NCBI GenBank assembly: GCA_030062745.1
Contig: CP099849.1
Span: 25,780,144-25,844,143 of the forward strand
DNA length: 64,000 nucleotides
From: Capitulum mitella
Lineage: Eukaryota > Arthropoda > Thecostraca > Pollicipedomorpha > Pollicipedidae
Direction of reading: 5' to 3'
The translations under genes and the position numbers were made by a program. Position 1 is the stretch's first letter, and each line of letters opens with the position of its first letter. The notes beneath the pieces are model-generated. The model did not search any database. It saw nothing but the letters and a program-made list of their open reading frames with translations, and was not told the origin of the DNA. Below, one piece after another: positions 8,541 through 63,600 of this stretch.

Positions 8541-9753
8541 TTAACCCTATTCCCGTCAGGGGGGCGGAATCCGCCCCCCTCGGGTTTTTTGCTTGTCAAT
8601 TACAGGCTTTTTTGCGCAGCTTCACGAAACTTGGTCACTTTTCCTAGCTATTCCTTCTACGTGCTGTGACAAAATTTCAAAATTCTATTTTGCTCAGGGG
8701 CGGAGCCAGGCAACGTTTTTGGGAGGCACCTCATGCCATTTTTGGCCATGTTGAGGGTAAAAGGAAAATGTCTGCCAAAAACAGATTTTCTAAGATAGAA
8801 CTTAAAACTTTACATGGATGTACAGCTAAACAGTTGGGCAATGTGCACAGAAAATTTTGTTTATCTGAGGTCATTTTACAAGGTCACGTCAAGGTCAAAA
8901 GTCAAACTTTGTTTTTTCGCAATAATTTCGGCACCATTTTCTCAAATAACAAACCCAAAATATATATGACGTAGAAGAGTGCCTTCTACTTGTGTACCAA
9001 GTTTCAGCTTGATATCAGGTCGGGTCACGGAGATATGGCCTAAAATGTCAGTGCGCGTACCCTATATCGCAATAGCCATAAAATAAAATTTTTGAAATAG
9101 AGTGAATTCAAATGATTGAAAACGTTTAAAGATAATATTAAATGCACACCAGATCATTCCAAGTGACCCCAAGGTCAATAGAGGTCATTTAAGGTCAAAG
9201 GTCACAAGTTGATCTGGGAAACGCGTGACCATGACAGTTCCCCCTTTTTCATGTCCCTGGCACCGCCTATGCTAACATTATACAAACAATGTAATGCGAT
9301 TTGTACTTCTTTAGTATAACATGACTAGCAGAAGCCAAAAAAGGGTGTTTGCCTCTTTTGTTAATTCAGTTGTTAGAAAAGTAATCCTCCTATTTTTGAA
9401 ACCCTGTGAACGCCCATGAATTTTCTCAAAATTTCAGATTTGCGGACCCGTGGTAAAAGGCCTATCCATAATCTCTCGATTCATGCCAGTTTCATCGAAA
9501 TCGGTCGATAAACAACGGAGTTATAAGAGGTCCAAAAGTACCCCCCATTTTAACATTTTTGCCCCCTGTATCAACAAATTTCGAAATTTTGAAAATTTCT
9601 TGTTATAAAAGTGTAGTTCACGTCACGGCAAATCGATTGCCGTTTGTTGCGATGAAATCGGACTAGTAGTTCTCGAGATCTCAGGGGGTGCCGAATCCGC
9701 CCCCCCCTGCCGGGAATCGACCATACCGTCTAGCCCTCCGGGAATAGGGTTAA
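8541..9753 (-). mobile_element. TTAA-flanked piggyBac-like non-autonomous DNA transposon, copy 1
   Basis: A 1205-bp element (8545-9749) lies between direct TTAA duplications at 8541-8544 and 9750-9753. Its termini are inverted repeats starting CCCTATTCCCG; TTAA targeting and ends beginning CCC are hallmarks of piggyBac-type elements. It has no coding capacity. One end carries a perfect hairpin with arms GGGGGGCGGA and TCCGCCCCCC. The other end has the terminal repeat, the motif GAGGGCTAGACGGTATGG and a second ATTCCCGG before a G-run. It carries seven exact AGGTCA half-sites, all on one strand. It lies opposite in orientation to copies 2-4 and shares diagnostic bases with copy 3. Confidence 0.85.
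9172..9204 (+). promoter_or_regulatory. AGGTCA array: DR4, DR4, DR1 (nuclear-receptor-like half-sites)
   Basis: Four exact AGGTCA hexamers start at 9172, 9182, 9192 and 9199, giving direct repeats with spacers of 4, 4 and 1 base. DR1 and DR4 are classical binding layouts for RXR/USP-, HNF4- and EcR-type nuclear receptors. The same arrangement is present in the other three copies of this transposon. Binding is inferred from the motif only; a transposase-binding role is an alternative. Confidence 0.45.
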
Positions 9754-12984: not shown

Positions 12985-20209
<7,225 letters not shown>

Positions 20210-38379: not shown

Positions 38380-39604
38380 TTAACCCGTCCCCGACTGGGG
38401 GGAGGCGGTTGACTGCCCCCCTGAGGTTTTTCTGGAATTGCAAGAGAACCAACAAACACAGAGTCACGAAACTTCGTGTACCTTTTGCTCCATCAATTTA
38501 ACATCTCGTGTCAAAATTTTGACCTCAGGTCAGGTCCGGTGCCTGACTTAAGCCAGGTCAAACGGACCTATGTCAAAAAAAGTTTAGCGCCCTCTAACCT
38601 TTTTGCAAAACAAGATATCTCAATAATACTTTCAGGGATTAGTCATCGTGATAGATGCAACAAATGTGCTATCTCAGATTTTTCGGAATCTTCCGGGTCA
38701 TTGACATAAGGTCAAGCCCATTTTTAAGACATGTCGCCGTTTTTTCGGAAATTGACGGAATATTTCATAATATTTTTAATGTGGAGTGAACCAGGCATCT
38801 AGTCACCGTCATTGGGCAAAGTATCAATGACTTCCAGCCATTGACCTGAGGTCAGGTCACGAATAACTGTAGTGAGTCAAAATGTACCACCGTCAAAATC
38901 GACGATGAATTACTCAGAATGGGTAGAAAATGGCAGAACTAGCTTGCACAGACGTAAGTAGTACCAGGAACTTCAAAAAGTTTGAAAAAGTAGCATATTT
39001 TGGAAATAAACAGGCTGTCGCGAATAAAGCGCCGCCAATTTTGTAGATTGGTAACTAATCAATTTTTCCGAAGTATAAGCATGAGAAACCATCACAAGAA
39101 CCACAAAGATCAATAAAATACACATAGATCGCCTTTTTTCGCGAAAATAAAGAAACGCTAAAACTACTTCCCGTCAATTTGGTACCGCATACGGCAGCGT
39201 CGCACACCGACAGCTGGCGAGAGAATTGCCGTGTCTTTAACTCAACGTTTCGGCGTATATATTGAACAAATCTGGGAAATTAGGCGTGTATCGGCATCCG
39301 CGGACCTTTACTTGTGCGCTGGTACCTTTACCTATGCGTTATTAGTCACAACCCTTGAGATTCAGGCCGTTTCTCGGTCTCATGCAGTCGGCCATGAGAA
39401 AACATATATGGGGCGTAAATTGGCTTTCATATTATCTAAAACTGAAAATGAGACCAGTTTCGAGCTCTACTCGTCACAAGCTTTCCAACGGTGTGCTTAT
39501 TTTTATCGTGCGACCAACTGTTCGTGAGTTAGAGGGGGGCAGCCAACTGCCCCCTCCCTCAGTCGCCGATGTTCGAAACGGACCGACGGTCGTGCGCGGG
39601 TTAA
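38380..39604. mobile_element. TTAA-flanked piggyBac-like element, third family (1217 bp)
   Basis: TTAA at 38380-38383 and 39601-39604 flank a 1217-bp element (38384-39600). Its ends start CCCGTCCCCGAC on the left and CCCGCGCACGAC on the right, a loose inverted repeat. The left subterminal region has a G-run and C-run around GGCGGTTGACTG. The right has a perfect hairpin GGGGGCAG/CTGCCCCC (39535-39554). Many AGGTCA half-sites are present, in both orientations. It is non-coding and has the same architecture as the 1.2-kb CCCTATTCCCG family with different sequence. Confidence 0.75.
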
Positions 39605-46283: not shown

Positions 46284-49200
46284 TCATTTATTTATCTATC
46301 TATCTATCTATCTATGGCATCCATATGGTTCCGGAATGAATCAAAACTGTATTGATTAACTTATGACTCTGGTCCCGAGTTAAATCAATACACTTAAAAA
46401 AATGCACCAAATCAGAATCAAAATAGGTTTCTCGCTCTGGACATCCAAAACTGAATCGGTTCACCACAGGTGAATCAGGCACAAACCTGCATGGAACACA
46501 ACCACGTGAAATCGACGCAGGATAGGATTGTCCGTACTCCGAACCACAAAGGATGTGGCTGTTCTGCCGCTCCATTCCACCACTCAGGATGTGATTCTTA
46601 TCAAGTTTCTCACCCCAGGAAGTGGTCCTTATCAAGCTTCCCAGATCAGACCGGATGTGGCCAACCTGTGCGCTCCCACGCCTACACAGCACGTGGTCCA
46701 CCCCCGTAGCTGCAGCTTCCGTTCCGTGCGGTCAGCCTCCCTGTCTACCGGTTCCTTCGATGTGAATCACGTCTCTCGCTGTGCCGCTTCCCCTCAATCC
46801 AGCCTACCTCCCTTTCTACCGTTTCTTTCCACCACTGCAGTACACCTTCCTCTGAACAGCCTCTTATCTACGTGATCCACTTCCTCTCGTGTTTCGCCCC
46901 AGGGTGCTTGACGTTTACTGCTTTCCCACATCGCGCTCCGCTCCCTTCCCTACTGCTTTCCCGAAAATGCATCTGCCTCCCTCTCCGCCGCTTTCCTCGA
47001 TGAAGCCCATCCCCTCGCATTTCGCTTACCCATGATGTGGTCGGTTTCGTTTAGATTCACGGCCCGCAGCTCGGACGTGGTGGCCACGAACTCCGCCGAC
47101 AGGCCCATCTTTCGCTTGGCCATCAGCCAGGCCTGGGTCAGGTCACGGCCGTCCTGACGCTTGCAGCCTCCCGGGTTCTCGGGAGCGAAGCGGGTGTTGT
47201 TCAAGTTGGCCATCATCATCTGGCGCCCGCCGCCGAACAAAACCTGCCACAGAAGATGACGTCAGCCGCAGATACCATCAAAAATCAAATATACATTTCG
47301 ATATACAAATATACCGGCAAGGTCCGCTCATGGCAGCCCTGGCTGCATCTCACACCGATCATGCAGTTCTTGTCAACCGCGGTTTTTTGTACCGCAGTTG
47401 TAACTTGATTTGAATTCCGCAAGGCGTGTACCACCGGCTATGAGATACCAGTCACCGTTAAAACTGAGGAAACGCTTCCACCTTGTCATCCTTCCGGCGG
47501 GCCCCAGGCCAACAAGCTTTCAAACTGTCTCATCGAGGTGAAAAGTCGCCAAATCGTATGTGAGCTAAGAAAACCATATAGAATCAAACCTTTCCACCGT
47601 TAGCCTTGGTCCAAAACACTTTGCAGTAATTGAATCAGACACAACATAATGTCTTCCTCTTAACAGCCATTTAATCAGACACAGCGTAACATTTTCTTTC
47701 TTCACAGCCATTTAATCAAGCAAAACGTAGCATCTTTCTCGCTCCCATTAAATCGTTGGAGAAACCACAGACCAACGTCTAAGTTTGGCGCCCCTTCCTG
47801 CTGTCCCTGCCACTGGCCCCTCCCTGCTGACGGCACCTCCCTGCTGTCCCTGCCACTGGCCCCTCCCTGCTGACGGTCCCTCCCTGCTTTCCCTGCCACC
47901 GGCCCCTCCCTGCTGACGGTCTCTCCCTGCTGTCCCTGCCACCGGTCCCTCCCTGTTGACGGTCCCTTCCTATCTTCCCTGACGCCGGCTCCTCCCCGAT
48001 GTCCTTGTCGCCATTCCCTCGTCCCCTGATGGCCGCCCCTCCCTGCCTTTCAGCTGCAGGCCCCTCCCTGCTAGTTTTCCCGCCACTCCCCCTGCTAGCG
48101 GCCCCTCCCTGTTGTCAGTCCCTCCCTGCTGTCCCTGCCGCCGATGTCACCTTCGCGTGCTTGCCGGGGGAGTTTTCCACCAGCTGTCTGGCGATGTCCG
48201 TGCAGTCCTTGCCGGCGTTGCCCAGTTTGCCGTCACATTCCCAGTTGCGGTGGCCGGACTTGGCGTACAGGGCGGCTGGCGTGGCGTGCGTGATGCGGGT
48301 CGTCGTCACGATGCCTGCGGCAGACGTCAGAGTCAGTGTCCGTACGTCAGTGACGTATGGACGTGCATGGCCAAGGTCCATACATGTCCATACGTCACAC
48401 GACAGTAGAAACAAAGCGCGGGAAAAGAACAAAAAGAAAAAAGTCACCAAAACCAACAGTGCTTTCTGTATATGAATGAAGATACATACAGAAAATACCT
48501 CAGTATTCGCATTCGGTGTAGCATTCAGTATACAGTATTAAGAACCTCAGCATCAGCGAGGCCGATGGACAATCAGTGAGCACAATCCACGGCTGAGAGG
48601 GATGTTTACAACGAGCATGAAACATTAATGACTAAACAGCGAGTGAGTGGCGCCAAATACTGTACAGGTGTGGAGCGTCCGCGGCTGTTCCACAGGGACG
48701 TGATATCCGTTACCGTGCAGCGGGCGTGCAGCACCCATCGCTACGGAACGGTTAATCGGCGCTGTAAATCCAAAACCCGGTCCGGAGCACAGGTGAATGG
48801 CGTCCAGAGCCCGCGAGCCCCACGCCGCGCCGCGCTCTGCCTGGCATTCACAGCGACCGGTGGACCACTGGTGCAACGTCGGAGATCCCGTGTGACGAAA
48901 CGTGCTCCACTGCCCCACAGTTTTCCCTGGCCGTTCTGCCTGCCGCCCTCGTCCACAGAATGAGCCCGCCGGTAGCGAACAATGGCCGTCGGCGCCCCGA
49001 CCACTTCAGCGCTGATGAAGTTTCCCTGCACTGCATAGGGTAATGGGACTGCAATGTACACCGCCGCGGAGGCCGCCGACAGGTGCCTGGCAGGGCCCGG
49101 AAGCCCCGGGCCGTTTCCGGGACGAGGTGCTGTGGCTCTGTGGGGCCTCCGGCTATGGGGTCCACGAGGGTCAGGCCCGGATGGAGGTCATTGAGATGAG

Positions 49201-52200
49201 AGCGCTGAGTCTGATGCCTTAGCAGTCCGTCCCTATTTGGGAGTCGAGATTGCACAGCCTTTCACTCGACTGGTATCTGCTGTCGGCACATCATAACAGC
49301 CCATCATCCTGCCAGGAGGCAGTGTTTGTTTTTGTTAGCTCTGGGGGTAAACCGGTGTGCAGAATTAGCCAAGACGTCAACAGACGGCTGGACGGTCCCA
49401 TACCTGTCACGTATAACGTCAACGTTTTCGACTGTTGCCAGTTCCCTGACCCTTGGTCATCCAAATCCAGCGCCACAGTTTAGTCGCTTAAAGATGCACT
49501 CGAGATACTAGCAGGGAGGGCCGTGTCAGCAGTTTGAGGCAGACGACTCAAAACCAGACGTCTGGGCAGATAAGTTCATGCCCCAGGGCAAGGACGAAGG
49601 ATGGCTTGTTCCAAGAATCGTCGTAAAACGGCACCTGGGTATGACACACACAGTCTTAAGTAAATTCAACGTACCGTTGCTTACCGGATATGGCCATTGT
49701 TATCGCTATTTCGTCCCAGCCTTCAGGAGGAAATTTACCGCAGTAGTTTTGGAAGTACACGGCAGTAATTGGTCTATCCTGTGGACCACTGTGCGGGTAA
49801 AATGGCCCTTTGTGCCGTCAATTAAAACGTTGTTCGTCATGTGCAACGCAGACACGCATCAGGTCACTCTGTGTTCTTGCTCTTGTTCGCAGATCTGTTT
49901 CACGAATAATTAAGCAGCAAGTAGATGGGCGTCCGTGAAATGGCCAGCAATAGCGAGATGACATTATTCACGTGCGTTCAGCATGATGTTATCAGTGCGA
50001 GCGTGGACCGGGATGCATGGCAGCTGTCGGGGCTACCGGCACCGGACCACGTTCGTTGTAACAAAGGACCCGTGACTTGGATAATGTTTACATGACATCA
50101 TCCAATGGCTCAGCAGGCGACGGACGACGGCGCGCTTAGCTGCTCTTTCGAAGAACAATACAAAAATTGTCTCAGCTGAGGGCAAATCCACTGCACCATA
50201 GCGTTGTTCCTTCTGTTCCCCGTTTCCTATCTGGATTCCCCTTTAAATTTGTACTAACATGAGTAATATGTGGGGTTTCTGGGGACAGTCAGATATTTCC
50301 TGTGCCGGCAGGTTCCGAGGCTTAGGAAAAGTTTGCGGTCTGGGAAGGCATTGGCGGCAGGCATGGGCTGTGCCACGGCGGGGGAGCGAACAATGCCGCC
50401 AACCCCCTGACGAACGTGCTGCGCATACCAGAGATAGAAGGAAAAAATACCTGAAAAACTTGGTTTTTCCTTTGCCACGGAGGCCAGGCCCTTGACGAGA
50501 AGGCCGCAACGGTAGTCATACAACGCAAGGATGACATTAAACATTAAGATATATATAAGCCTGAAATGACGCAGTTTTTATGACATCAGAACAGTTCCTG
50601 GTTCCCAGAAGATCAGGCGAAATTCCAATGTAGGGGAAACACAAAACAATGGTGGGAGATGTGTCTGTTTACGAGAATGAGGCTTATATAGCACGAGCTT
50701 CACAGAGGAGGGTCTTACTCTGTTAACAAGACGGGCCTTCGTGGTTCAGCTACGTTTCGGGACTGGAAAGGCCTTGCCTGATGAGATTCGCCAAGGCCAC
50801 GGCCTTGTCTCAAGAATCGCAGATAATGGTGGGCCTTCGGGCCCTAAACGAAGTCTTGGACTCTGACAACGATGTCTTTTACCGCTGAGAATCATTCGAC
50901 GCTCAGGGCCGGTCGACGTCCGTGGTTTTATGAGAAAATTTATTTTCACGGACAGGTATCTTAACCCTATTCCCGGAGGGCTAGACGGTATGGCCGATTC
51001 CCGGCAGGGGGGGGCGGATTCGGCCCCCCCCCCTGAGATCTCGAGAACTACTTGTCCGATTTCATCGCAACAAACGGCAATCGATTTGCCGTGACGTGAA
51101 CTACATTTCGATAAAAAGAAATTTTCAAAATTTTGAAATTTGTGGATACTGGGGGGCAAAAATGTCAAAATGAGGGGTACTTTTTGACTTCTTATAACTC
51201 CGTTGTTTATGGACCGATTTCGATGAAACTGGCATCAATCGAGAGATTATGGATAGGGCTTTTACCATGGGTATGCAAATTTGAAATTTTGAGAAAATTC
51301 ATGGGCGTTCACAGGGTTTCAAAAATAGGGGGATTAGTTTTCCAATAACGGAATGAACAAAAGAGGCCAAAACACTTTTTTAGCTTCTGCTAGTCATGTT
51401 ATGCTAAAGAAGTACAAATCGCATTACAATGTTTGTATAATGTTAGCATAGGCGGTGCCAGGGACATAAAAAAGGGGAACTGTCATGGTCACACGTTTCT
51501 CAGATCAACTTGTGACCTTTGACCTTAAATGACCTCCAGTGACCTTGGGGTCACCTGGAATGATGTCGTGTGCATTCAATATTATCTGTAAACGTCTTTA
51601 ATCGATTAAATTCACTCTATTCCAAAAAATGCATTTTTTGGCTTTTGCGATATAGGGTACGTGCACTGACATTTTAGGTCATAGCTCCGTGACCTGACCT
51701 GATATCAAGCTGAAACTTGGTAGACAAGTAGAGGGCATCTTTCTACGTCATATATATTCCGGGTTTGGCATTTGAAAAACGGCGCCGAAATTATTGCGAA
51801 AAAACAAATTTTGAGTTTTGACCTTGACCTGACCTTGCAAAGTGACCTCAGATAAACAAAATTAGGTATGCACATTGCCCAACTATTTAGCTATACATCC
51901 ATATAAAGTTTTAAGTTCTATCTTAAAAACTCTGTTTTTGGCAGACATTTTCCTTTTACCCTCAACATGGCCAAAAATGACCTGAGGTGCCCCCCAAAAA
52001 CGTTGCCTGGCTCCGCCCCTGAGCAAAATAGAATTTCGAAATTTTGTCACGGCGCGTAGAAGGAATAGCTAGGAAAAGTCACCAAGTTTCGTGAAGCTGC
52101 GTCAAAAATCCTGGAATTGGCAAGCAAAAAACCCGAGGGGGGGCGGAATCCGCCACCCCCTGCCGGGAATAGGGTTAAGTATGCTACTTGAACTGTCTCT

Positions 52201-54751
52201 TTCCATTCCGTTCCCACAGCTGTTGTAATAACGCCGCCAGATGTCTAGTAAAGGTCATGCATAACAGCAGTAAAGTAGCGAATTACAGAACTGTTTTCTC
52301 CAACTGTGTCACGTCATCGCTATTCGTTGTCTTGCTGACGCTGCCGCTCAGAAATGAACGTTTAACGAAGGGTACGAGTATGGACGTAGGTAAATGAAGG
52401 CAGGAACAAAATCATACGAAATGCTGTTCGGTACAAACCCCATAAAACGTAAGAAAAATGTGAAAATCATAGTCAAAAATGTCAGGGATAAGACAAATAA
52501 TGTTCCGCACACAAATTTGTGGGAAAGCCTGCCCGTCTGCTTCGCGCTGGCGTGACCTGCGATCCGAGGACAGGCGCGACAACGAAGGATTACCGCCATC
52601 GCAGCGCCTCTAAGCCCCAATAAGCAACCAACCAACCGTCATCGTAACGTATTCAGAATGGCAGAAGAAAAAAAGGCGGAACATTGGGCATGAACTGGAG
52701 CTCTTCAAAACAAGCCAGTATAAATGCTCCAAACACTTGCGGAGAGCGACACGTGCACGCGTCCGTACATACCAGACGGGCACCGGGGGGGGGCCTTAGA
52801 GGGCTGGAGACTCTCCCTTAGCGCGGGGGAGGCCTCCAGGGCCCAAATCCGGGCCTCTCCGTGCCGCGCGCCGAGGGTCCCCGGACCTGGGATGGAGGGT
52901 GCCCCTTTCGCTGAGAGGTTTCCTGACTATTTTGGGGCCATCGGGCAAGGGGCACCGTTATTATAGGGCCTTTCTACTACGAGGCTTCTTTCTAGCTAAG
53001 GCCTCTTGACAAGCCAAAGGGTCCTGCTGGCCGGTAAAGGAGGCATCTTCTGGTCTGCAAAGGGCCGGCTTGCCGGCTTGCAGAAGGACCCTGCCGTCCT
53101 GCGAAAGGTCTGCCTGAGGGCCTGCAGGCAGGCCTCCTGCCGACATTTCAGAGTCCTTTACTTGTCTGTGAGGGAGTCCTGTGTCATGCTGCAGATGTCT
53201 TCTGCTGGCTTGAATACGGGCCTTATAAAGCGTTGTAAAGGGTTCCCTGTTGACTCATAGAGAACCCCCTGCTGGTCTGTAAGGAGGCCCCCTAACGACC
53301 TGCACATGGGTTTCTGTCGGCCTGTGAAGGACCCCTGCAGGCCTGTAAAGGATGACCGGTTATCCTATCAACGGCCCGTGCCAGTCTGTGACAGCACGCC
53401 TACGGAGCCTCAGATGGCCTCCTGCTGGTCTCTAAAGGGGTCCCTCTACAGGCCAACGGGATGTCCCGATGGCCTGTAGAGGGGCAGTCTGCTGGCCCCT
53501 TAAAGGGGCCCTCTGTTGATGGGCCTGTGGAGATGTCCCTGTAAAGAGCCCAAAACCCGGCCCCTACAGGGACTCCTGAACGTCTGTGAAGGTTTTCTTG
53601 CAGTTACCAGCTTGCAAAAGGGCCCATGGCGTCCTGTAAAGCTGTCTCCACGTGGTAGAAAAGGTCTGTGTCCTCCTAAAGAGCCATCCGCTGGCCTGTT
53701 AATAGGACGGGCCCAACTTACAAGTTATCTTGATCTCTACGCAGGGAACGAGCGCTGCACATAATGAGCTGTGAAGGAGGCCTCCGTGGGCCCGTGAACG
53801 GCATAAACCTGCTTGAGATGCCGTCACATCCGACAACACTTAATACTTTGTGGCACTCTATAGCAAACTTAAATTGGTACTCATGAATCAGTTCCGAACG
53901 AACAGGTTTGATTAAAGTTCTCACGTCCGTGGGACGGCTCCTTTTGCCGTTACGTCCTTTTATGCATGTGGTAAAATGCAGAACCTTCTCTGACCCAGAA
54001 GAAACCCATCTGAGCTATGAAGAAGGCTTCCAAAGGCCTACAAACACCGTGAACCTGCTTTGGTTGCCACCACATCCTATAAAATCTAATGATGTGGTTG
54101 CTGTGTGACATTCTATAACGAACTAAAACTGGTGTTGATCAATGCATTTGAGAACGGACAGTTTTGAATGAATTCCTAAGTTCTGTGAGGACGGACAGTT
54201 TTGAATGACAGTTTTGAATGAATTCCTAAGTTCCATGGGACACATTGTTTTTTGCCGCCGCGTTCTTCTCATGCATATGAATGTATATATACATATATAA
54301 TATATATATATATATATTATTATTGGTACATGCCAAAAAATATCCATCTGCATGAGGCTCCTACCTAACGGAGCGCCAGAGTGCATGCCTGCGCCTCGCA
54401 GCCACCACAATACAGTACGTGCTCTGCAAAGCATACCAGCACGTTCCGCTCGACCGGACATGGCGTAAGCACGGCGTTGATCGCCTCTCCACCCGCCCCA
54501 AACGCCTCACATCACTTCCTGACACGTCACTTCCTAACGCGTGGCCTCGCCGCCTCACCCGTGTCCTTCCTGGCGCGCTGCGCCCACTCCATGAGGCAGG
54601 GCTTGCTGTGGCGCGGGTTTTTGGCGGCCTCGCACTGGCCGGCCGAGACGCGACCGTCGACGCCGATCGTCTCGTAGTTGCCCTTGTAGCCGCACCAGAA
54701 GGCGGTGGCCGTGCCGGCCGAGTCCGGCACCTGGCGGTCCGGGTTGTACGT
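42872..54751 (-). CDS. Alkaline phosphatase, seven exons, N-terminus missing
   Basis: Zn/Mg-dependent phosphomonoesterase, normally a GPI-anchored ectoenzyme. Exons in order of transcription: 54751-54559, 48314-48151, 47243-47030, 45912-45779, 44936-44738, 44130-43921, 43077-42872. Every junction has GT-AG ends, and the phases (1, 0, 1, 0, 1, 1) join without a break to give 1320 bp, 439 residues plus stop. Motifs in order: [10 protein letters not shown] with the nucleophilic Ser (codon 54719-54721), [51 protein letters not shown], then a C-terminal hydrophobic tail suited to a GPI signal. About 90-110 residues are missing at the N-terminus (signal peptide and the GDGMG metal/phosphate motif). 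I could not find them up to 64 kb, so they may lie beyond the window. Tissue or substrate cannot be told from sequence. Confidence 0.93.
43595..43830. repeat. Minisatellite of about 62-66 bp, 3-4 units, in the last alkaline phosphatase intron
   Basis: Units share GGCCGGACAGACAAAGG, TCACCCGACCAATCAGAC and AACAGACAGCTGC segments; the last unit is diverged. It lies wholly within the intron 43078-43920. Confidence 0.85.
43921..44130 (-). CDS. Alkaline phosphatase exon with crown region and ETHGGEDVA
   Basis: 210 bp with a CGCCCGCAG acceptor and a GTGAGT donor. It encodes the variable crown-like segment with possible N-glycosylation sites (NFT, NGT), then [13 protein letters not shown] containing the last Zn-ligand His. 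Confidence 0.93.
44738..44936 (-). CDS. Alkaline phosphatase exon with metal-binding motifs
   Basis: 199 bp with a TTGTCGCAG acceptor and a GTAAGT donor. It encodes [13 protein letters not shown] (Glu as Mg ligand, Asp and His as Zn ligands) and VTADHSHV (Asp-His as Zn ligands), ending in RGKDILG. All expected metal ligands of this region are intact. Confidence 0.93.
45779..45912 (-). CDS. Alkaline phosphatase exon
   Basis: 134 bp with a CGTTTCAG acceptor and a GTGAGC donor. It encodes [16 protein letters not shown] to [11 protein letters not shown], corresponding to the LFEPGDTKYEIHRD...PSLTEMTEAAI region of known alkaline phosphatases just before the metal-binding EGGRIDH. Confidence 0.9.
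46236..46315. repeat. (TA)n followed by (TATC)n microsatellite
   Basis: About 44 bp of TA, a short TTTA/TTCA bridge, then about six TATC units. It lies in the alkaline phosphatase intron 45913-47029. Confidence 0.95.
47030..47243 (-). CDS. Alkaline phosphatase exon
   Basis: 214 bp with a CTGTGGCAG acceptor and a GTAAGC donor. It encodes [19 protein letters not shown] through [11 protein letters not shown], matching the family's ILGGGR strand and the following helix. Two NxT sites (NNT, NET) are potential N-glycosylation sites. Confidence 0.9.
47790..48145. repeat. Minisatellite of about 45 bp, abutting an alkaline phosphatase donor
   Basis: Pyrimidine-rich units with CTCCCTGCTGTCCCTGCC and GGCCCCTCCCTGCTGACGG segments, seven or so copies and increasingly degenerate to the right. 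It ends within about 6 bp of the exon donor at 48150, so it forms the 5' end of the following intron on the minus strand. Confidence 0.85.
48151..48314 (-). CDS. Alkaline phosphatase exon
   Basis: 164 bp with a CTGCCGCAG acceptor and a GTGACA donor (non-optimal but GT). It encodes [20 protein letters not shown], the conserved segment after the nucleophile exon, then a Cys-rich stretch NWECDG...[13 protein letters not shown]. The intron before it is 6.2 kb and carries TTAA element copy 2. The intron after it starts within a minisatellite. Confidence 0.9.
48315..50960. other. Alkaline phosphatase intron, unassigned part
   Basis: Intron sequence between the catalytic-Ser exon and the next exon. 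Several open frames occur on both strands in the GC-rich part (48.6-49.2 kb), but none is recognisable. Confidence 0.5.
50961..52178 (+). mobile_element. TTAA-flanked piggyBac-like transposon, copy 2 (in alkaline phosphatase intron)
   Basis: TTAA at 50961-50964 and 52175-52178 flank a 1210-bp element (50965-52174). It is homologous over its whole length to copies 1, 3 and 4, with terminal CCCTATTCCCGG and reverse complement CCGGGAATAGGG. It is very similar to copy 4 and shares with it diagnostic differences from copies 1 and 3 (for example the ACGGAATGAACAAAAGAGGCC region). TGACCT half-sites at 51513, 51520, 51530 and 51540 form the DR1-DR4-DR4 array. It is non-coding. Confidence 0.9.
52179..52990. 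other. Intron sequence, nothing recognised
   Basis: Part of the long alkaline phosphatase intron. The last 250 bp are GC-rich. No repeats or exons identified. Confidence 0.45.
52991..53720. repeat. Degenerate minisatellite with CTGTAAAGGGGCCC motifs
   Basis: About 20 irregular units of 30-45 bp, each with variants of GCTGGTCTGTAAAGGAGGCCC. The core at 53271-53292 closely matches the 22-bp unit at 967-1032 and is the reverse complement of the core in the 22.5-22.8 kb array. It lies in the alkaline phosphatase intron. Confidence 0.7.
53780..54265. repeat. Two diverged tandem copies of a roughly 240-bp block
   Basis: Segment 53780-53990 and segment 54035-54265 share, in the same order, CCGT-GAAC-CCTGCTT, CACATCC, GTGGC/GTGAC-ATTCTATA, CGAAC and a GGGAC...TTTTGCCG...ATGCAT end. 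The second copy contains an additional internal direct repeat of GACAGTTTTGAATGAATTCC. Identity is moderate, indicating an old duplication. Confidence 0.6.
54289..54328. repeat. AT-rich microsatellite
   Basis: TATA/TATTAT dinucleotide and trinucleotide run of about 35 bp, ATACATATATAATATATATA-like. Confidence 0.9.
54559..54751 (-). CDS. Alkaline phosphatase exon with catalytic Ser
   Basis: 193 bp, starting in phase 0 after a CTGTTGCAG acceptor and ending one base into a Gly codon before a GTGAGG donor. It encodes [20 protein letters not shown] and a Cys-containing segment up to ARKDTG. The aligned family sequence continues upstream with LSK-like residues, so at least one earlier exon exists. 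A 12-bp minisatellite lies immediately upstream of the acceptor. Confidence 0.9.
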
Positions 54752-58900: not shown

Positions 58901-58999
58901 GCCCATGGCGACGGGGGCTCGCCACCCGAGACGTCACTTCACCACGGACCGGGCGGAAGTACCTCGCCGCCTAATGAGACGTCACATTCCTAGGGTCCT
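55936..58999. other. Unassigned DNA
   Basis: About 3 kb with overlapping open frames on both strands at 56.1-56.7 kb and 57.5-58.1 kb. None has a recognisable domain, and the frames compete with one another, so I call no gene. Confidence 0.35.
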
Positions 59000-59309
59000 C
59001 TCCTGAGCCCTGGTGACGTCGGGAGACCCTCTCCTGACCTCTGGTGGCGCCGGAAGACTTGCTCCTGACCTCTGGTGACGCTGGAAGGCCCGCTCCTGAC
59101 CTCTGGTGACGCCGGAACACCCTCTCCTGACCTCTGGCGACGCCGGAAGACCCTCTCCTGACCTCTGGTGACGCCGGAAGACCCTCTCCTGGCCTCTGGT
59201 GACGCCGGAACACCCTCTCCTAACCTCTGGTGATGCCGGAAAACTCGCTCCTGACCTCTGGTGGCGCCGGAAAACTCGCTCCTGACCTCTGGTGACGCCG
59301 GAAGACGGG
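59000..59309. repeat. 31-bp minisatellite, exactly ten units
   Basis: Ten contiguous 31-bp units starting at 59000, each CTCCTGACCTCTGGTGACGC plus CGGAAGACCCT with a few substitutions. No length variation is seen. The minus-strand open frames (RRHQRSG-like repeats in shifting frames) are by-products. The array ends directly at a CpG-rich block. Confidence 0.95.
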
Positions 59310-61384: not shown

Positions 61385-62387
61385 TTAACCCTATTCTCGG
61401 AGGGCTAGACGGTATGGCCGATTCCCGGCAGGGGGGCGGATTCGGCCCCTCCTGAGATCTCGAGAACTACTTGTCCGATTTCATCGCAACAAACGGCAAT
61501 CGATTTGCCGTCACGTGAACTACATTTTTATCAAAAGAAATTTGCAAAATTTTAAAATTTGTGGATACAGGGGGGCAAAAATGTCAAAATGGGGGGTACT
61601 TTTGGACTTCTTATAACTCCGTCGTTTATGGACCGATTTCGATGAAACTGGCATCAATCGAGAGATTATGGATAGGGCTTTTACCATGGGTATGCAAATT
61701 TGAAATTTTGAGAAAATTTATGGGCGTTCACAGGGTTTCAAAAATAGGAGGATTAGTTTTCTAACAACTGAATGAACAAAAGAGGCAAACACCCTTTTTT
61801 GGCTTCTGCTAGTCATGCTATACTAAAGAAGTACAAATCGCATTACAATGTTTGTATAATGTTAGCATAGGTGGTGCCAGGGACATGAAAAAGGGGGAAC
61901 TGTCACGGTCACACGTTTCTCAGATCAACTTGTGACCTTTGACCTTAAATGACCTCCAGTGACCCTGGGGTCACTTGGAATGATCTCGTGTGCATTTAAT
62001 ATTATCTGTAAACGTTTTCAATTATTTGAATTCACTCTATTTCAAAAATTTCACTTTATGGCTATTGCGATATAGGGTCCGCGCACTGACATTTTAGGTC
62101 ATAGCTCCGTGACCCGACCTGATATCAAGCTGAAACTTGGTACACAAGTAGAGGGCACCATTCTACGTCATATCTATTCCGGGTTTGGCATTTGAAAAAA
62201 CGGCTCCGAAATTATAGCAAAAAAAACAAATTTTGACTTTTGACCTTGACCTGACCTTGTAAAATGACCTCAGATAAACAAACTTATATCTGAATATTGC
62301 CCAACTATTTAGCTATACATCCATATAAAGTTTTAAGTTCTAGCTTTAAAACTCTGTTTTTGGCAGACATTTTCATTTTACCCTTAA
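61385..62387 (+). mobile_element. TTAA-flanked piggyBac-like transposon, copy 3, truncated
   Basis: TTAA at 61385-61388 followed by CCCTATTCTCGG (one change in the terminal repeat). Homology to the other copies continues for 995 bp (61389-62383) and stops at a TTAA (62384-62387), where copy 4 begins. About 205 bp of the right end are missing and do not reappear after copy 4. It shares diagnostic bases with copy 1. Of the AGGTCA array, three half-sites (61933, 61940, 61950) are exact and the fourth is changed. Confidence 0.85.
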
Positions 62388-63600
62388 CCCTATTCCCGGA
62401 GGGCTAGACGGTATAGCCGATTCCCGGCAGGGGGGGCGGATTCGGCCCCCCCTGAGATCTCGAGAACTACTTATCCGATTTCATCGCAACAAACGGCAAT
62501 CGATTTGACGTGACGTGAACTACATTTTGATAAAAAGAAATTTTCAAAATTTTAAAATTTGTGGATACAGGGGGGCAAAAATGTCAAAATGGGGGGTACT
62601 TTTTGACTTCTTATAATTCCGTTGTTTATGGATCGATTTCGATGAAACTGGCATCAATCGAGAGATTATGAATAGGGCGTTTACCATGGGTATGCAAATT
62701 TGAAATTTTGAGAAAATTCATGGGCGTTCACAGGGTTTCAAAAATAGGGGGATTAGTTTTCCAATAACGGAATGAACAAAAGAGGCCAAAACACTTTTTT
62801 AGCTTCTGCTAGTCATGTTATGCTAAAGAAGTACAAATCGCATTACAATGTTTGTATAATGTTAGCATAGGCGGTGCCAGGGACCTAAAAAAGGGGGAAC
62901 TGTCATGGTCACACGTTCTTCAGATCAACTTGTGACCTTTGACCTTAAATGACCTCCAGTGACCTTGGGGTCACCTGGAATGATGTCGTGTGCATTCAAT
63001 ATTATCTGTAAACGTCTTTAATCGATTAAATTCACTCTATTCCAAAAAATTCATTTTTTGGCTTTTGCGATATAGGGTACGTGCACTGACATTTTAGGTC
63101 ATAGCTCCGTGACCCGACCTGATATCAAGTTGAAACTTGGTAGACAAGTAGAGGGCATCTTTCTACGTCATATATATTCCGGGTTAGGTATTTGAAAAAA
63201 CGGCGCCGAAATTATTGCGAAAAAACGAATTTTGACTTTTGACCTTGACCTAACCTTGTAAAGTGACCTCAGATAAACAAAATTACATATGCACATTGCC
63301 CAACTATTTAGCTATATATTCATATAAAGTTTTAAGTTGTATCTTTAAAACTCTGTTTTTGGCAGACATTTTCCTTTTACCCTCAACATGGCCAAAAATG
63401 ACCTGAGGTGCCTCCCAAAAACGTTGCCTGGCTCCGCCCCTGAGCAAAATAGAATTTTGAAATTTTGTCACAGCACGTAGAAAGAATGGCTAGGAAAAGT
63501 GACCAAGTTTCGTAAAGCTGCGTTAAAAAGCCTGGAATTGGCAAGCAAAAAACCCAAGGGGGGGGCGGATTCCGCCCCCCCCTGCCGGGAATAGGGTTAA
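62384..63600 (+). mobile_element. TTAA-flanked piggyBac-like transposon, copy 4
   Basis: A complete 1209-bp element (62388-63596) between TTAA at 62384-62387 and 63597-63600. It has terminal CCCTATTCCCGG and reverse complement, G/C-run hairpins near both ends, and TGACCT half-sites at 62933, 62940, 62950 and 62960. It is nearly identical to copy 2, so these two likely moved most recently. It is non-coding. Confidence 0.9.

Follow-up and report, generated by a model that had tools for sequence, protein, structure and literature searches.

In the 64-kb stretch of DNA analysed here (the window), copies of a transposable element carry four half-sites in the arrangement AGGTCA-N4-AGGTCA-N4-AGGTCA-N-AGGTCA (DR4-DR4-DR1). 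The locus raises the question whether the preserved spacing reflects a function of the array, as was suggested in a preliminary description of this DNA, or the common source of the copies. The feature is real, abundant and was correctly described; our best reading is that it is a MITE dispersing putative receptor-type sites, comparable in kind to Alu as far as the available part of the source describes it (PMC1785376). The step from preservation to a host function is not supported.

Materials and methods

The source genome, which was searched as a whole, comprises 477,042,490 bases in 16 contigs. Copies for the decay tests were chosen by an anchor sequence and not by the array, and the anchor columns were excluded. 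The sample consists of the first 70 of 100 anchor matches listed, all situated on contig C1 and with an exact anchor, so that young copies are over-represented. Eight loci selected by the array (L001-L008) were kept out of the tests with the 70 copies. Mutations seen in one copy only were designated as private and taken as arising mostly after insertion; variants common to at least two copies were taken as marks of source lineages.

Old copies were sought among 20 matches with less than 90% identity. Eleven of them were used, one being a neighbour found in the array-selected locus L006. The nine unused matches comprise six that do not span the array, one with 89% identity, L036_645, which lay outside the limits and extends over one half of the array, its sites there being decayed, and L076, which was dropped by name with the array missing in the alignment, an omission that favours conservation.

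Results and discussion

The arrays and their carrier

The array is exact in three of the four element copies of the window and one letter off in the fourth (Table 1). The coordinates and spacers given in the preliminary description were all right, and the same applies to the inverted orientation of copies 2 and 4 and to the single decayed half-site of copy 3. The divergence between copies to which it referred is also visible, as 128 of 1001 four-way gapless columns vary. Of the DR1 to DR5 spacings that characterize nuclear-receptor response elements, the array contains an exact DR4, a second DR4 and a DR1. Even with three mismatches allowed, the pattern was absent from 100 dinucleotide shuffles of the window, and a chance origin was rejected. 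Within the window, chance is the wrong null hypothesis, because the four arrays are copies of one element and not independent.

Table 1 Features of the window (positions from the first base of the 64-kb stretch)
Feature	Position	Strand	Basis
MITE copy 1, TTAA + CCCTATTCCCG ... CGGGAATAGGG + TTAA	8541..9753	+	sequence, ends, length 1213, alignment
Inner segment enclosing all perfect half-sites of copy 1, from CAGGGGCGGAGCCAGG to CCTGGCACCGCCTATG; imperfectly hAT-like	8695..9271	+	sequence
Second AGGTCA cluster of copy 1 (AGGTCA at 8868, 8881, 8892)	8868..8897	+	hexamer positions, sequence
Exact array of copy 1, spacers 4-4-1	9172..9204	+	pattern scan
Ancient sequence related to the first 143 bp of the element (65% identity)	38380..38522		sensitive blastn
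MITE copy 2, full length (1218), in alkaline phosphatase intron	50961..52178	-	sequence
Exact array of copy 2	51513..51545	-	pattern scan
MITE copy 3, first ~210 bp absent; broken end meets copy 4 at shared TTAA	61385..62387	-	sequence, alignment
Array of copy 3, first half-site GGGTCA	61933..61965	-	pattern scan
MITE copy 4, full length (1217)	62384..63600	-	sequence, alignment
Exact array of copy 4	62933..62965	-	pattern scan

The carrier is a gene-less element of about 1.21 kb with TTAA target sites and CCCTATTCCCGG ends. Three of the four window copies are full (1213-1218 bp counting both TTAA), and all three have TTAA at both ends, a CCC start and the inverted ends TTAACCCTATTCCCG. The terminal inverted repeats CCCTATTCCCGG pair element positions 1-32 with 1188-1218, and the element has subterminal inverted repeats of its own at 6-42 and 1149-1185. 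Both TTAACCC and GGGTTAA are intact in 53 of the 70 sampled copies, the median length of which is 1213 counting one TTAA. Judged by frame length, copy 1 has no transposase of its own, its longest listed stop-to-stop frame being 108 aa.

MITEs of the piggyBac type are short, lack a transposase, have TTAA targets and ends starting with CCC, and occur in thousands of copies. The target sites, CCC ends, missing transposase and copy number of the element agree with this description, and by its sequence features the carrier is a piggyBac-type MITE. It differs from such elements in its length, as 1.2 kb is long for a MITE, in a GC-rich palindrome adjoining the ends, in an AGGTCA-rich core and in that no partner with matching ends was found.

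Counted on both strands, copies 1, 2 and 4 contain 7, 12 and 9 perfect half-sites. All of them are confined to the inner 575-577 bp, the outer ~640 bp being free of them, and most have the same direction along the element. The second cluster of the element includes a DR5 with the spacer GGTCA.

Copy 4 adjoins the truncated copy 3 at a TTAA (61385-63600), and several sampled loci also hold copies that lie side by side or interrupt each other. Such arrangements may indicate a taste for self-insertion.

The preliminary description had placed one copy inside an alkaline phosphatase intron, which agrees with our pattern search. The exons on either side of copy 2, one with the motif DSAGTATA (near 54724) and the other with HATPA (near 48288), belong to a minus-strand gene, and we take both motifs to be those of alkaline phosphatase.

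Abundance in the genome

A scan of the genome gave 4,427 exact arrays, compared to none for the reversed pattern. This supports the claim that the array belongs to a transposon family and was widely dispersed by it. All eight exact-array loci that were fetched are full-length copies of the element. Exact TTAACCCTATTCCCGG element ends were counted 13,225 times, and the anchor, situated about 170 bp from the array, had 9,617 matches with up to three mismatches. If every anchor match were full length, the family would make up about 2.5% of the genome, which is an upper-end figure. The first 100 end matches listed include 37 adjacent facing pairs with a distance of 1172-1246 bp and one further facing pair with 66 kb; the exact array is enclosed by 20 of the 37.

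The exact arrays supply 8,854 DR4s and half of the DR1s. Provided that every exact array lies in a copy, as was true of the eight checked, the family supplies at least 27% of the perfect DR4 and half of the perfect DR1 sites of the 477 Mb genome. It would therefore carry heavy weight in any receptor-binding map of the animal. Pattern scans of viral_contigs and genome_contigs gave no matches, as is to be expected if the element is confined to animals. When the source genome was searched for DNA similarity to the 66-bp inner end, nothing was returned, probably since very common words are skipped.

For the piggyBac transposase family PF13843, 118 genome matches were obtained, some of which are pieces of one gene. 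An autonomous partner with CCCTATTCCCGG ends was sought in the neighbourhoods of two of the 118 matches, and the ends proved to be different in both. One (L079:469-3374) is a 2.9 kb piggyBac element with TTAA, perfect 14-bp ends CCCATTAACGCCCA and an open transposase frame of 557 aa. The other (L080:457-3126) is a second piggyBac-type element with TTAA and ends differing at 2 of 14 positions; it probably jumped into a MITE copy, since pieces of the MITE are found on both sides.

Decay of the half-sites

In the window, variation affects 1 of 24 hexamer columns and 13% of the columns elsewhere (P=0.16); slid combs are equally good in 173 of 968 cases. Without the truncated copy 3, the values are 0 of 24 and 10.3% (P=0.07). 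In the 70-copy sample all four half-sites are intact in 46 copies. Private mutations were detected in 17 of 1642 hexamer cells, 6 of 615 spacer cells, 768 of 66820 non-CpG background cells and 88 of 7650 flank cells. The preliminary description had taken the preserved spacing as suggestive of function; in its simple form this inference fails, as private mutations strike the hexamers like the background (P=0.81) and half-sites are broken in 10 of the 11 old copies. The check that it had proposed, a comparison of hexamers and spacers with the flanks across copies, likewise revealed no deficit of private mutations in the hexamers of the 70 sampled copies (P=0.80). As far as the 70-copy test can see, inserted copies decay neutrally, half-sites included.

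We read these data as no host-level selection across copies. Selection of the array as a functional response element serving the host at many loci is very unlikely and was rejected for the lack of a private-mutation deficit, to which the broken half-sites of the old copies are added. The perfect DR4 and DR1 half-sites are of a known receptor-binding kind and one copy resides in the alkaline phosphatase intron, both of which would suit such a role; a handful of selected copies among thousands would be invisible to the private-mutation test.

With regard to whether half-sites decay at the same rate as the rest of the element, the answer is divided. It is affirmative for the private changes. Shared variants show a weak deficit, affecting 5 of 24 hexamer columns versus 449 of 959 elsewhere (P=0.012), and 40 of 1003 slid combs are equally low. 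When all deviations are pooled, 7 of 1003 comb positions, the array's own included, are as low, or 21 of 1003 without CpG columns. Two 30-column bins, those at 341 and 641, overlap the two clusters and rank among the four with the least variation in the 70-copy sample; another of the four holds part of the anchor. For shared variants the spacers are as quiet as the hexamers.

In the 11 old copies, the hexamers deviate in 28 of 256 cells versus 1198 of 6771 in the background, a level as low being reached by 95 of 709 combs. Taken together, nine half-sites average 0.107 compared to 0.183 for 583 other hexamers, with P=0.008 uncorrected for the correlation of neighbours. All four half-sites are changed in a 75%-identical copy and all four are kept in a 78% copy.

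The hint of constraint between source lineages that these results give is weak and unproven. The AGGTCA clusters could be useful to the element or its source copies, e.g. as putative sites of host nuclear receptors, through which chromatin would be opened or activity increased at the place of transposition. Lineages keeping the clusters would then have been amplified and landed copies would drift. The low shared variation in the array, the quiet bins over both clusters, the low joint average of the nine half-sites in old copies and the presence of AGGTCA DR4 arrays in other repeats of the genome point in this direction. However, segments free of AGGTCA are quieter still in the old copies (combs starting at 951-961, 718 and 738), the spacers are no noisier than the hexamers in the 70 copies, and a gene-less MITE moved in trans needs no transcription. 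Altogether, a benefit to the element seems unlikely to us.

Transposase binding and the inner segment

The alternative named in the preliminary description was a transposase-binding array, which could belong to the piggyBac-type element or to a hAT-like element nested within it (8695-9271 in copy 1). A piggyBac transposase is expected to bind subterminal inverted repeats. In copy 1 the array does not begin until base 632 of 1215; because of this central position, and because the element has its own subterminal inverted repeats, binding by the transposase of the outer element is unlikely and was rejected.

The inner segment begins with CAGGGGCGGAG, which is identical to the 11-bp end published for the hAT element Tip100 according to the available part of the source (PMC12511174). 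Furthermore, its two 16-bp ends match at 13 of 16 positions by reading, and every perfect half-site of the three full window copies lies inside it. It differs from the Tip100 type, as far as that is described in the same part of the source (PMC12511174), in an imperfect right end, the lack of an 8-bp duplication and the lack of independent copies. No 8-bp target duplication was seen around the segment, as the flanks differ in all three full window copies. A free-standing segment was not found among the 70 anchored copies, in which older copies are under-sampled: none lacks both outer arms, and one (L076) has the right outer arm only. The one-way direction of most half-sites, instead of an inward direction from both ends, also argues against a transposase-binding array. 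A nested hAT origin of the inner segment, as far as its sequence can tell, is unsupported, and a transposase-binding array of either kind is highly improbable.

Passive carriage and comparison with Alu

Passive carriage by the MITE is favoured because the array is far from the ends, the ends have their own repeats and a nested hAT is unsupported. The array probably forms an internal portion of a piggyBac-type MITE that is abundant and non-autonomous and whose copies drift and possibly disperse receptor-type sites. The array was evidently already present in the amplifying source sequences, whereby identical half-sites and spacing came to thousands of places; post-insertion drift appears neutral for the half-sites, too, judging from the 70 copies on contig C1. 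Mobility was presumably provided in trans by one of the piggyBac transposases of the genome. Host nuclear receptors could bind the perfect DR4 and DR1, and by analogy to Alu with DR2 in primates the family would thereby disperse receptor-type sites. The same motif in every copy is the outcome of amplification from a common source and does not speak for a function. Transposons that seed perfect receptor sites provide raw material for regulatory change.

In primates, Alu drove the expansion of DR2 retinoic acid response elements, and about half of the consensus DR4s are located within Alu, as stated in the available part of that study (PMC1785376). To the extent covered there, both cases would have in common that a non-autonomous repeat spreads perfect direct-repeat receptor sites, one spacing being far commonest. 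They differ in that the carrier here is a DNA transposon and not a SINE, that DR4, DR1 and DR5 are concerned instead of DR2, that the sites form a four-half-site array, and that receptor binding is a prediction in the present case. In addition, many DR4s here lie outside the MITE in other repeats, unlike the situation described for Alu in that part (PMC1785376). No earlier report of the AGGTCA-array MITE family was found among the papers listed from the open-licence literature on nuclear receptors, AGGTCA/DR4, transposable elements, MITEs and piggyBac; the CAGGGGCGGA end was also looked up in open-licence literature.

DR4 excess beyond the element

Exact counts in the genome (reversed-pattern control in brackets) were 8,878 (208) for DR1, 909 (142) for DR2, 949 (153) for DR3, 32,896 (499) for DR4 and 8,361 (148) for DR5. 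With the MITE included, DR4 exceeds DR2 and DR3 by a factor of 35 each, its reversed control itself being two to three times the other controls. Most DR5s among the 100 matches listed have, by eye, the spacer of the element's second cluster. The 100 DR4 matches listed stem from C1 only (+ strand to 2.96 Mb, - strand to 0.70 Mb). They comprise 41 with MITE-like spacers, 12 GGTC pentamer runs and 47 others, compared to 3.6 expected at DR3 density. Without MITE-like spacers, DR4 is about 13 times as frequent as DR2 or DR3 among the matches listed.

The loci L081-L109 (29 loci) contain 38 of the 47 other DR4s and were chosen for spacers unlike those of the MITE, so that hexamer conservation is meaningless there. 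At least three of the 47 lie in old relatives of the MITE (L084, L088). With half-sites masked, the 29 loci and the MITE formed 15 unlinked groups, one of them consisting of the MITE, L084 and L088; with a laxer cut-off and without masking three group pairs merged, leaving 11-14 contexts outside the MITE. Several of the unlinked groups are visibly repeats. Since a single founding DR4 is multiplied along with its family, the DR4 excess counts copies and not origins. How many independent origins there were is uncertain, and distant relationships may escape the grouping by sequence.

Perfect AGGTCA pairs or triplets with a 10-bp period, differing spacers and flanks unlike the MITE occur in L082, L083, L085, L086 and L087. 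Another repeat, composed of AGGTCA-rich modules about 150 bp apart, was seen in L081:767-1216, L089 (AGGTCAAGGTCATCAAAGGTCA) and L100.

With elements and tandem arrays of the window masked, AGGTCA is the ninth most over-represented of 2080 hexamer pairs (68 versus 25 expected from dinucleotides); against the longer-word expectation of 48 this is less striking. In 120 kb of flanks of the 70 copies it ranks twelfth (123 versus 54). In 178 kb without recognisable copies, AGGTCA pairs occur four times at distance 10, compared to 0.10 expected, and never at 7, 8, 9, 11 or 12; six pairs were found at distance 5, two at 6 and three each at 20, 28 and 29. Among 180 orders of the AGGTCA letters, no other exceeds one at distance 10 in this DNA.

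It is conceivable, if rather doubtful, that AGGTCA at exact 4-bp spacing (10-bp period) is a module common to several unrelated repeat families, and that a site for one and the same DNA-binding protein, perhaps a germ-line nuclear-receptor dimer, was gained or retained by selfish elements again and again. If the excess across other repeats were truly convergent, this would be an unusual case of many selfish elements with one host-factor site. The DR4 excess in other repeats is the part that our sequence comparisons leave unexplained and is worth pursuing.

Other features

Look-alike stretches were noticed by eye within the element at 470-530, 940-1000 and 1100-1150 (GTTTCA...GATATC/AAATCGG...CGGAGNTAT), and in old copies the combs near element positions 475 and 955 deviate less than the array does.

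Outside the MITE copies, the window contains an acetylcholinesterase exon (15523-17130, - strand), for which the closest solved structures are 5ydj, 6ary, 6arx and 5x61, presumably mosquito acetylcholinesterase chains. It was the sole Pfam match for 10 of 110 long window frames. A 31-bp tandem repeat at 58997-59306 consists of ten units, seven of which contain TGACCT.
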